The position numbers and the translations under genes were made by a program. A stretch of DNA of 33,824 bases from a virus. The stretch is taken from the IMG/VR virus record IMGVR_UViG_3300027917_000109, positions 1-33,824 of that record; one strand, written 5' to 3'. Of the stretch, positions 23,914 through 33,723 are shown piece after piece. Within the stretch, counting starts at the first letter, position 1. Every line of letters starts with the position of its first letter. The notes beneath the pieces were generated by a model that was not told the origin of the DNA, searched no databases, and saw only the letters and a program-made list of their open reading frames with translations.

Positions 23914-24085
23914 CGCGGGGCTCCTTGTCGGGATATACAGGACCACATTGGACGGGCACGGGGCAGTACCGGCACGTCCCATCACACGCTGGATCGTGCT
24001 CGCTTGCGGTATGCCATCCAACGTCACCGAGCATCCCTTCGATAGCTACCCGCTGACCGCAACCAGCGCATTTCCCATCAGCCAT
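23903..24085 (-). CDS. Hypothetical zinc-binding 60-residue protein
   Basis: ATG 24085 shares one base with the preceding stop (TGATG). The protein has CAGC at 6-9 and CDGTCRYC at about 34-41 plus another Cys and two His residues, so a zinc-binding fold is likely. The pattern is seen in small phage zinc-finger proteins of unknown role. It is sandwiched between the two copies of the zinc-ribbon gene. Confidence 0.65.
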   Translation of the reverse strand: MADGKCAGCGQRVAIEGMLGDVGWHTASEHDPACDGTCRYCPVPVQCGPVYPDKEPRDAE

Positions 24086-24234
24086 CACTCCCCCTTGTCC
24101 AGCGCGGCGGCGGCACGGCAGCGCGGGCATCGTTGCGGACGCTTGCCATAACAGTCAACGGGCTCGTTTGCTTGCTCTTCTGAGCCAGCCTCGTACGCAC
24201 CTCCGCAATTTCCACAAACGGTTATGCAGGGCAT
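24085..24234 (-). CDS. Zinc-ribbon miniprotein, copy A
   Basis: A 49-residue protein with CGNC at 7-10, Cys28 and CPRC at 36-39. It is the partner of the gene at 23465-23611, almost identical through residue 40. ATG 24234 overlaps the upstream stop (TGATG), with GGGGGAG ahead. Too few aromatic or basic residues are present to call nucleic-acid binding confidently. The four genes 23465-24234 form one cluster of very small Cys-rich proteins. Confidence 0.75.
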   Translation of the reverse strand: MPCITVCGNCGGAYEAGSEEQANEPVDCYGKRPQRCPRCRAAAALDKGE

Positions 24235-32271: not shown

Positions 32272-32394
32272 TTAGATGTTCGCGATCCAGATCCCGAGAG
32301 GGATCCCGACTGCCAGCCCGATTGCTGCGCCGATGGCGAACGTCTTGAACACCTCGAACCACTCGAACGGGTAGGCGCCGAGGATCATCTTCAT
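32272..32394 (-). CDS. Small single-span membrane protein (holin-like?)
   Basis: A 40-residue protein starting at ATG 32394, overlapping the upstream stop (ATGA). MKMILGAYPFEWFEVFKTFA is followed by IGAAIGLAVGIPLGIWIANI, one clear transmembrane helix (about 20-38). It is short for a holin but fits small phage lysis or exclusion proteins. No endolysin lies next to it in this window, so the holin idea is weak. Confidence 0.55.
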   Translation of the reverse strand: MKMILGAYPFEWFEVFKTFAIGAAIGLAVGIPLGIWIANI

Positions 32395-33041
32395 TTGAAG
32401 ATCCTGAACAGCGCCGTGATGCCGAAGCGCGTCTGCGGCGGCACGTCCGCGGTCGCGAACGGCTCCGGCCTCGCGCACCGACCGCCGCCGCACATCGGGT
32501 AGATCCAGTCGATGCTGGCGTTGGGATCGAACTCTTCGAGATCCCGCGTCACATCGACGACGAGGCTGGGAACCCAGGCACGCTTGTGCTGCCACTTCGG
32601 GTGCCACGCGCCCATGATCTTGAACGCGCTCGCCGAAGTCAGACCGCTGTCCCAGCCCGCACCGAGGCTCGCGCCATGCGTGGGCTTGAACTCCTGCTTG
32701 ATGTTGATCTCGACCTCTTCGCAGTAGAAGACCGGGATCTCCACCTCGGGCCCTTCCTCGGGGTGCTCGGTGTGCGAGAAGAAGCAACGCACGTTGTCGC
32801 TCGTCTCGATCTTCACCGGCACCGGATTGCAGATGCAGTCCGGCGCCTCCGGGCAAGGCGGAACCTCGGGGCACGGATTCGGACACTCAAGGTTGATGTC
32901 CGGGTGCGAGCACGGCTTCGGCTCGTAGTACACGAGCTTCGGCTCGTCGCCCGGCGAGCCCGCCACCGAACATGTGACAAGGTTGCTGATCACCAGCAAC
33001 ACCGCGAACACGAACACCAGACCGAACTCTCTTCCCGTCAT
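32391..33041 (-). CDS. Cys/Pro-rich exported, lipoprotein-like protein
   Basis: A 216-residue protein. ATG 33041 follows AGGAG. Residues 7-23 form a hydrophobic signal (GLVFVFAVLLVISNLV), then LVTC at 21-24, a possible but non-ideal lipobox with Thr before Cys. Residues about 55-72 are Pro/Cys-rich (CPEVPPCPEAPDCIC). The C-terminal half alternates hydrophobic residues and ends RFGITALFRIFK, which could form beta strands as in outer-membrane or envelope proteins. Function unknown: an outer spanin-like lysis protein or a superinfection-exclusion lipoprotein are alternatives. Confidence 0.6.
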   Translation of the reverse strand: MTGREFGLVFVFAVLLVISNLVTCSVAGSPGDEPKLVYYEPKPCSHPDINLECPNPCPEVPPCPEAPDCICNPVPVKIETSDNVRCFFSHTEHPEEGPEVEIPVFYCEEVEINIKQEFKPTHGASLGAGWDSGLTSASAFKIMGAWHPKWQHKRAWVPSLVVDVTRDLEEFDPNASIDWIYPMCGGGRCARPEPFATADVPPQTRFGITALFRIFK

Positions 33042-33072
33042 GGCCTGCTCCTTTCCCCCTGTGTAAGTTGAT

Positions 33073-33138
33073 GCCCGCCCGGCAATCCCGAACGCGGCCT
33101 CCCACCATGAAAGATTACGTTAGAACTTGCGGGCGGGC
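33073..33138 (-). other. Imperfect inverted repeat upstream of exported-protein gene
   Basis: GCCCGCCC then GCAA (33073-33085, one bulged G at 33081) pairs with TTGCGGGCGGGC (33127-33138), 12 bp. On the minus strand it ends about 30 nt before the ATG at 33041. Likely an mRNA leader hairpin; it lies in the same non-coding stretch as the structured RNA candidate. Confidence 0.45.
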
Positions 33139-33151
33139 ACAACAGTGTTGT
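33139..33151. promoter_or_regulatory. 13-bp dyad, possible operator
   Basis: ACAACA-G-TGTTGT is a perfect dyad around one central base. It sits at the edge of the structured element, downstream of the Xre-type regulator gene, and could be a binding site of that regulator. Not proven; no second copy was found nearby. Confidence 0.3.
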
Positions 33152-33267
33152 CGAGGTGCGCTCGAACCGGAGGGTTCGGACTGAGGGGAATCGACAGGCG
33201 CGGTGGAGGGAACCGCGAGGCAATAGACAGGTGGCCTGAAACGGCCGGGCGTGACGCACCTCGACAA
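33148..33267 (+). ncRNA. Candidate structured RNA: 13-bp closing stem with three hairpins
   Basis: TTGTCGAGGTGCG (33148-33160) is the exact reverse complement of CGCACCTCGACAA (33255-33267). Inside are three hairpins: CGAACC-GGAG-GGTTCG (33163-33178), CGCGGT-GGAGGGA-ACCGCG (33199-33217) and GGCC-TGAAAC-GGCC (33233-33246). A near-repeat AATnGACAGGnG precedes hairpins two and three. Read on the plus strand, U-G pairs could extend two hairpins and the closing stem, and the loops show GGAG. On the minus strand, in the sense of the operon, loops show CUCC and UCCCUCC. The strand is therefore uncertain. No clear own promoter was found. Confidence 0.45.
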
Positions 33268-33270
33268 TGT

Positions 33271-33486
33271 TCATGCGCTGACTCTATCGTTGCGAAGGAA
33301 GTAGCCCGCGTCTCGGTTGAGACGCTTGGCAATGACCGCGAGCTGCGTTGCGTTGGGCTGGGTCTTGCCCCACTCCCAGCGCTCGATGGTCGACAAGCTC
33401 ACGTCGAGGTGGACCGCCAGCTGCTCCTTGGACATGCCGATGTGCAGCCGGGCCCGCCTCAGCCTCTCGTGATTGAACTTCGCCAC
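33271..33486 (-). CDS. Xre/Cro-type helix-turn-helix regulator
   Basis: A 71-residue DNA-binding protein with a GTG start at 33486, 5 nt after GGAGG; upstream in-frame codons overlap the structured leader and are unlikely to be coding. Residues 19-45 are a classic HTH_XRE domain, SKEQLAVHLDVSLSTIERWE with WGKTQPN, continuing ATQLAVIAKRLNRD. It is the first gene of the leftward block and lies beside two divergent promoters, so it probably represses or switches them. The remaining C-terminus is too short for a cleavable CI-type domain, so a Cro-like role fits best. Confidence 0.85.
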   Translation of the reverse strand: MAKFNHERLRRARLHIGMSKEQLAVHLDVSLSTIERWEWGKTQPNATQLAVIAKRLNRDAGYFLRNDRVSA

Positions 33487-33510
33487 GTTCACCTCCGTTG
33501 TGCTGACCCG

Positions 33511-33612
33511 CCAGGGAATCGAACCCTGGACGCCCGAGCCTCGAATCCAGAGCGAAGCGCCTCTCACCCGTAGGATTCGAGGGGCGCGCTCCGGCGCGCA
33601 CCAGCCGAGCCA
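33511..33612 (-). other. Structured leader with tRNA T-arm-like hairpin
   Basis: Just downstream of the leftward promoter the minus strand can form GCGCGC-CGGA-GCGCGC (33584-33599), a 10-bp stem CCTCGAATCC/GGATTCGAGG (33539-33548 and 33573-33582), and CCAGGG-TTCGATT-CCCTGG (33511-33529). The last is shaped exactly like a tRNA T arm. An acceptor partner for the following GCGGGTC is missing and no acceptable anticodon arm was found, so this is not a standard tRNA gene. An alternative stem (33557-33565 with 33579-33587) competes with the 10-bp stem. Confidence 0.4.
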
Positions 33613-33657: not shown

Positions 33658-33723
33658 CCTCATTTCTGAGGTTCATTTCTGCTTGACAATTATGTCTGGT
33701 GACGCCATACTGTCCATAGACAT
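33658..33723. promoter_or_regulatory. Candidate operator dyads between divergent promoters
   Basis: CCTCA-TTTC-TGAGG (33658-33671) is a perfect dyad. TCATTTCTG occurs twice in direct orientation (33660-33668 and 33673-33681), 13 bp apart. ATGTCT (33692-33697) and AGACAT (33718-33723) form an inverted pair around the rightward -10 region. These are reasonable binding sites for the Xre-type regulator, but which are used is unknown. Confidence 0.35.
33683..33711 (+). promoter_or_regulatory. Rightward sigma70-type promoter
   Basis: A perfect TTGACA (33683-33688), a 17-bp spacer and CATACT (33706-33711, four of six matches) precede a strong ribosome binding site and the ATG at 33743. The two promoters are divergent, with -35 boxes about 37 bp apart. 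Confidence 0.7.

Follow-up and report, generated by a model that had tools for sequence, protein, structure and literature searches.

The question raised by this locus is what occupies a gap of 229 nt between the Xre gene and an exported-protein gene in a phage whose neighbouring genes are tightly packed. The window analysed is the whole IMG/VR virus record IMGVR_UViG_3300027917_000109, which has 33,824 bases and is classed as linear. According to the codon-model gene map, the minus strand carries all genes between the left end and 33.49 kb; 13 gene junctions measure exactly -4 bp (ATGA-type overlaps, the commonest junction type among the contig's genes), and gaps of more than 100 nt are few. 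The 229-nt gap is unusual because the minus-strand genes around it are packed in this way. The widest gap in the same map, at 23947-24233 (287 nt), contains short frames.

The right part of the contig encodes an ERF annealing protein, an AAA/SbcC-like protein and a YqaJ exonuclease, and beyond them an orphan protein with a signal-like N-terminus and then a small Xre/CI-like repressor. The repressor gene (HTH_3; 33271..33486, minus strand) has a GTG start and a strong ribosome site; a longer frame reaching 33615 is probably not its N-terminus. The downstream gene (32391..33041, minus strand), which has a strong ribosome site of its own, encodes a putative exported protein with an N-terminus that is signal-like or possibly that of a lipoprotein. 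Neither a family nor a relative of this protein was found in the family search and the viral contig search; adjoining the repressor, the gene is, by position only, a candidate for superinfection exclusion. A plus-strand gene starts near the right end of the contig, and promoter-like sites in both directions were found at 33.62-33.72 kb, with the minus-strand site located upstream of Xre. The best terminase matches in a profile search of viral and genome contigs were only ~44% identical, and the phage therefore appears as an isolated lineage in the collections searched.

A frame of 78 codons (33038..33274, minus strand) runs through the gap, and the sequence-only reading had named its translation and conservation as a protein as grounds against an RNA at this place. 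It might be a real small gene or a translated leader coupling Xre to the exported protein, in which case the stems described below would be incidental or would modulate the coupling; its ATGA overlap with both neighbours, the modal junction type here, speaks for such a role and against an untranslated gap. The composition of the frame argues otherwise. GC at the three codon positions is flat (0.59/0.61/0.63), compared with GC3 values of 0.69-0.94 in the reference genes, and the codon score of -0.51 per codon lies below that of every gene segment tested, the lowest of which scored -0.17. In codon usage and codon-position GC the frame is thus unlike this phage's genes. Its ribosome site (-2.4 kcal/mol) is the weakest of those compared, a Pfam search gave no match, and a separate strong ribosome site serves the downstream gene. 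We judged the frame non-coding, a translated product being unlikely, and the 229-nt gap is probably non-coding.

The gap holds two tandem predicted structures, which we call elements A and B in their order on the minus strand; the 78-codon frame spans both. Element A (33148..33267, minus strand) starts 3 nt past the Xre stop codon and comprises three hairpins within an exact 13-bp stem (14 pairs including one G-U). The left arm TTGTCGAGGTGCG (33148..33160) and the right arm CGCACCTCGACAA (33255..33267) are 94 nt apart and 100% complementary. Among perfect inverted repeats of the contig whose arms are at most 160 nt apart, this one is the longest, the runner-up having 11 bp; repeats of at least 13 bp arose at a mean of 0.1 per shuffled contig in 20 whole-contig dinucleotide shuffles. 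Read on the minus strand, hairpin 1 is GGCC-GUUUCA-GGCC (33233..33246), hairpin 2 is CGCGGU-UCCCUCC-ACCGCG (33199..33217) and hairpin 3 is CGAACC-CUCC-GGUUCG (33163..33178), so that no minus-strand loop contains GGA; on the plus strand the loops of hairpins 2 and 3 read GGAGGGA and GGAG. All three form on either strand in the isolated fold. A junction motif, CNCCUGUCNAUU on the minus strand, occurs at 33222..33233 and again, 33 nt away, at 33189..33200, both copies matching AATnGACAGGnG exactly on the plus strand. The repeat, the hairpins, the two plus-strand GGAG-type loops, the doubled motif and the location between the two genes had all been described from the sequence, and each was recovered here.

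Folding of both strands gave element A a z-score of -5.9 on the minus strand, where 0 of 200 shuffles were as good, and of -3.8 on the plus strand. With the closing stem removed, the interior retained z-scores of -2.6 on the minus strand (1% of shuffles as good) and -1.2 on the plus strand. Together with the stem statistics and the lack of coding signal, these values support the earlier proposal of a structured non-coding RNA region.

Element B, absent from the sequence-only reading, starts 4 nt past element A on the minus strand (33067..33143). It is predicted as a rod-like hairpin of 32 pairs, seven of them G-U, with internal loops, and shows the strongest strand bias within the gap: its fold z-score is -4.4 on the minus strand and -2.6 on the plus strand, its energy is -42.4 kcal/mol versus about -31, and that of its interior -12.7 versus -2.1, the upper half collapsing on the plus strand. 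Because a G-U pair contributes only in the strand that is transcribed, minus would be the RNA strand for B, which agrees with the gene order, all neighbouring genes lying on that strand. Given these predicted folds, the RNA strand of the whole region is likely minus, and the plus strand, preferred initially, is the less likely one.

The choice of strand bears directly on the proposal that the region encodes a plus-strand RNA titrating CsrA/RsmA. Element A resembles titrating RNAs of the CsrB and RsmZ type in carrying GGA in the loops of two plus-strand hairpins, but it has no more than these two, probably on the wrong strand, where a sponge would have several ANGGA motifs in its loops. The sites favoured by CsrA are ANGGAN hexaloops carried by weak stems (PMC7652899), whereas the plus-strand loops of A (GGAG, GGAGGGA and UGAAAC) sit on G+C-rich stems of 4-7 bp, those of the two GGA loops being stable stems of 6-7 bp; the sole ANGGA-like site is AGGGA in the 7-nt loop, which does not have the preferred form. 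The promoter scan gave no plus-strand promoter directed into the element, the operon is on the minus strand, and B folds worse on the plus strand, its G-U pairs favouring the opposite one. A sponge for CsrA/RsmA is therefore highly improbable.

What the two structures do together is best accounted for, in our tentative view and at somewhat less than even confidence, by a cis-acting RNA processing or stability element between the repressor and the downstream genes. This reading fits best because two strong structures lie side by side, without a U-run, in a stretch judged untranslated that separates the repressor from the downstream genes. The gap would be the untranslated intercistronic region of a leftward, minus-strand phage mRNA and would fold as A, with its three hairpins under a 13-14 bp closing stem, followed by the 32-pair rod of B with its internal loops. 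In cis, A and B would allow the repressor message and the message of the downstream genes to meet different fates: either RNase III would cleave the long helices, in the manner of T7 R1.1 and the rpsO-pnp intergenic hairpin, or 3'-5' exonucleases would be stopped by these helices, which would stabilise the repressor mRNA. The analysis establishes the sequence, the absence of coding signal, the statistics of the folds and the bias towards one strand; transcription of the region, its cleavage or protection and a regulatory consequence are what we infer.

The structured RNA R1.1 of T7, 60 nt long and with an internal loop, comes from between genes 1.0 and 1.1 and is cut by RNase III (PMC6121014); the rpsO-pnp intergenic hairpin is a comparable case (PMC10126417). 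In common with A and B, both have long hairpins with internal loops in intergenic gaps of operons, on the mRNA strand; the long, nearly continuous helix in an untranslated operon gap that is expected of an RNase III site is predicted for both B (32 pairs) and the stem of A (13-14 bp). Unlike these sites, A is multibranched under one 13-bp stem instead of a rod, and there is no sequence relation. By analogy they may serve as the closest models for the action of A and B, and we do not claim membership. Literature searches on RNase III with phage early mRNA, and on put RNA, were mostly without result.

Besides the ATGA overlaps of the 78-codon frame and the failure to find homologues, two findings count against the processing or stability reading. 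In the computed optimum for A together with the downstream start region, the 13-bp stem is open, and forcing A costs 5.6 kcal/mol; the isolated fold is thus not guaranteed in the full mRNA, and stem A may compete with other predicted pairings in the full leader. Furthermore, a coarse scan (24 shuffles) gave z-scores of ~-4.8 for other segments of the contig, coding ones included, so that the fold statistics do not by themselves stand out in this G+C-rich contig. What carries the case is the length of the repeat, the non-coding gap and the strand bias.

Other functions for an RNA at this position were considered. By inspection of the sequence and a promoter/terminator scan, neither A nor B is followed by a U-run on the plus or the minus strand, and the two are thus not intrinsic terminators. 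The minus-strand loop UCCCUCC had been likened to an anti-Shine-Dalgarno sequence; as a translation switch, pairing of A to the downstream ribosome site does appear in the computed optimum, but shuffled interiors pair as strongly and the pairing carries no weight. The same C-rich loops, CUCC and UCCCUCC, could instead be seeds against purine-rich ribosome sites if A, perhaps with B, were a discrete trans-acting phage small RNA of the minus strand, excised from the operon mRNA or made separately. The compact closed fold exposing pyrimidine loops would suit such a molecule, as would the lack of an Rfam family; yet neither a promoter or terminator of its own nor homologues were found, a G+C-rich genome would have C-rich loops in any case, and A paired with the local ribosome site no better than shuffles did, so we regard a small RNA as unlikely.

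In the early operons of lambda and HK022, the nutR and put sites lie behind the first regulatory gene, nutR standing behind cro. Elements A and B are similarly placed, following the first regulatory gene and preceding those for recombination (ERF, YqaJ), which would suit an antitermination or transcription-control element in the early transcript. In contrast to those sites, neither boxA/boxB nor a put-like two-hairpin signature is recognisable in A or B by eye, and no partner protein was identified; this function seems quite unlikely.

Equally doubtful is a role at the level of DNA, either as clustered repressor or recombinase half-sites (GACA/TGTC copies) or as what is left of a small mobile element bounded by 13-bp inverted repeats. 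GACA-type motifs are repeated in A, the TGTCCATAGACA palindrome lies near the divergent promoters, and the arms of A could be terminal inverted repeats. Nevertheless, searches of the contig, of phages and plasmids and of 2.4 Mb of related loci found no second copy, a target duplication is not evident, as the flanks share only TG, the number of TGTCCATAGACA palindromes is within chance, and the G-U pairs of B argue for RNA. Element A thus shows neither the further copies nor the target-site duplication of a MITE. IS21-type terminal repeats were considered as well; the one candidate tested sits between genes for a terminase and a DUF4055 protein, so this idea was dropped.

The searches for relatives also bear on the claim that the layout matches no known RNA class, which holds only in the sense that Rfam gave no family at the gathering score; a sub-threshold scan returned only chance-level matches. 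Comparison of the gap DNA with phages, plasmids and 2.4 Mb of fetched related loci gave only short, chance-level matches, while the best protein relatives in the Xre, exported-protein, portal, ERF and terminase searches were 40-52% identical. Pattern scans of IMG/VR for the inverted repeat, the doubled motif and stem B found no similar DNA. The inverted-repeat pattern had eight matches, which by inspection look like coding coincidences, several of them in one terminase-like frame; the doubled CCTGTCNATT motif had 56, in mixed contexts and without a comparable closing stem; and the pattern for stem B had four, with interiors that do not match. No homologue was thus found in the collections searched, from which records very close to this one may have been withheld.

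We consider it very unlikely, though worth naming, that the repeated hairpin and CCUGUCNAUU unit of A in its perfect closing stem represents the first example of a kind of phage regulatory RNA not described before, acting with B on the switch between repressor and downstream early genes. A processing step as such would be ordinary phage biology, and surprise would come only from a demonstrated new RNA class. If a processing or stability element is the right reading, A and B would be an intercistronic RNA control point beside the repressor in a phage lineage for which the searched collections gave no close sequenced relatives, and would show how such a phage gets differing levels of repressor and downstream products from one transcript.

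Two features on the other side of the repressor gene may be added. At 33683-33722 a predicted plus-strand promoter, TTGACA-17-CATACT, adjoins the TGTCCATAGACA palindrome, which, lying between the divergent promoters, is a candidate Xre operator. The leader of the Xre mRNA (33504-33612, minus strand) resembles a degenerate tRNA, with a TTCGATT T-arm, a D-loop-like GGCTGGT and a 7-bp acceptor-like stem, and begins at the RNA start expected from the predicted promoter. ARAGORN detected no tRNA in this leader, its tRNA-Sec match scored 19.1 bits against a cut-off of 47, and its fold z-score is -1.5; it may be what remains of a tRNA or of an att site, or else a leader that mimics a tRNA.
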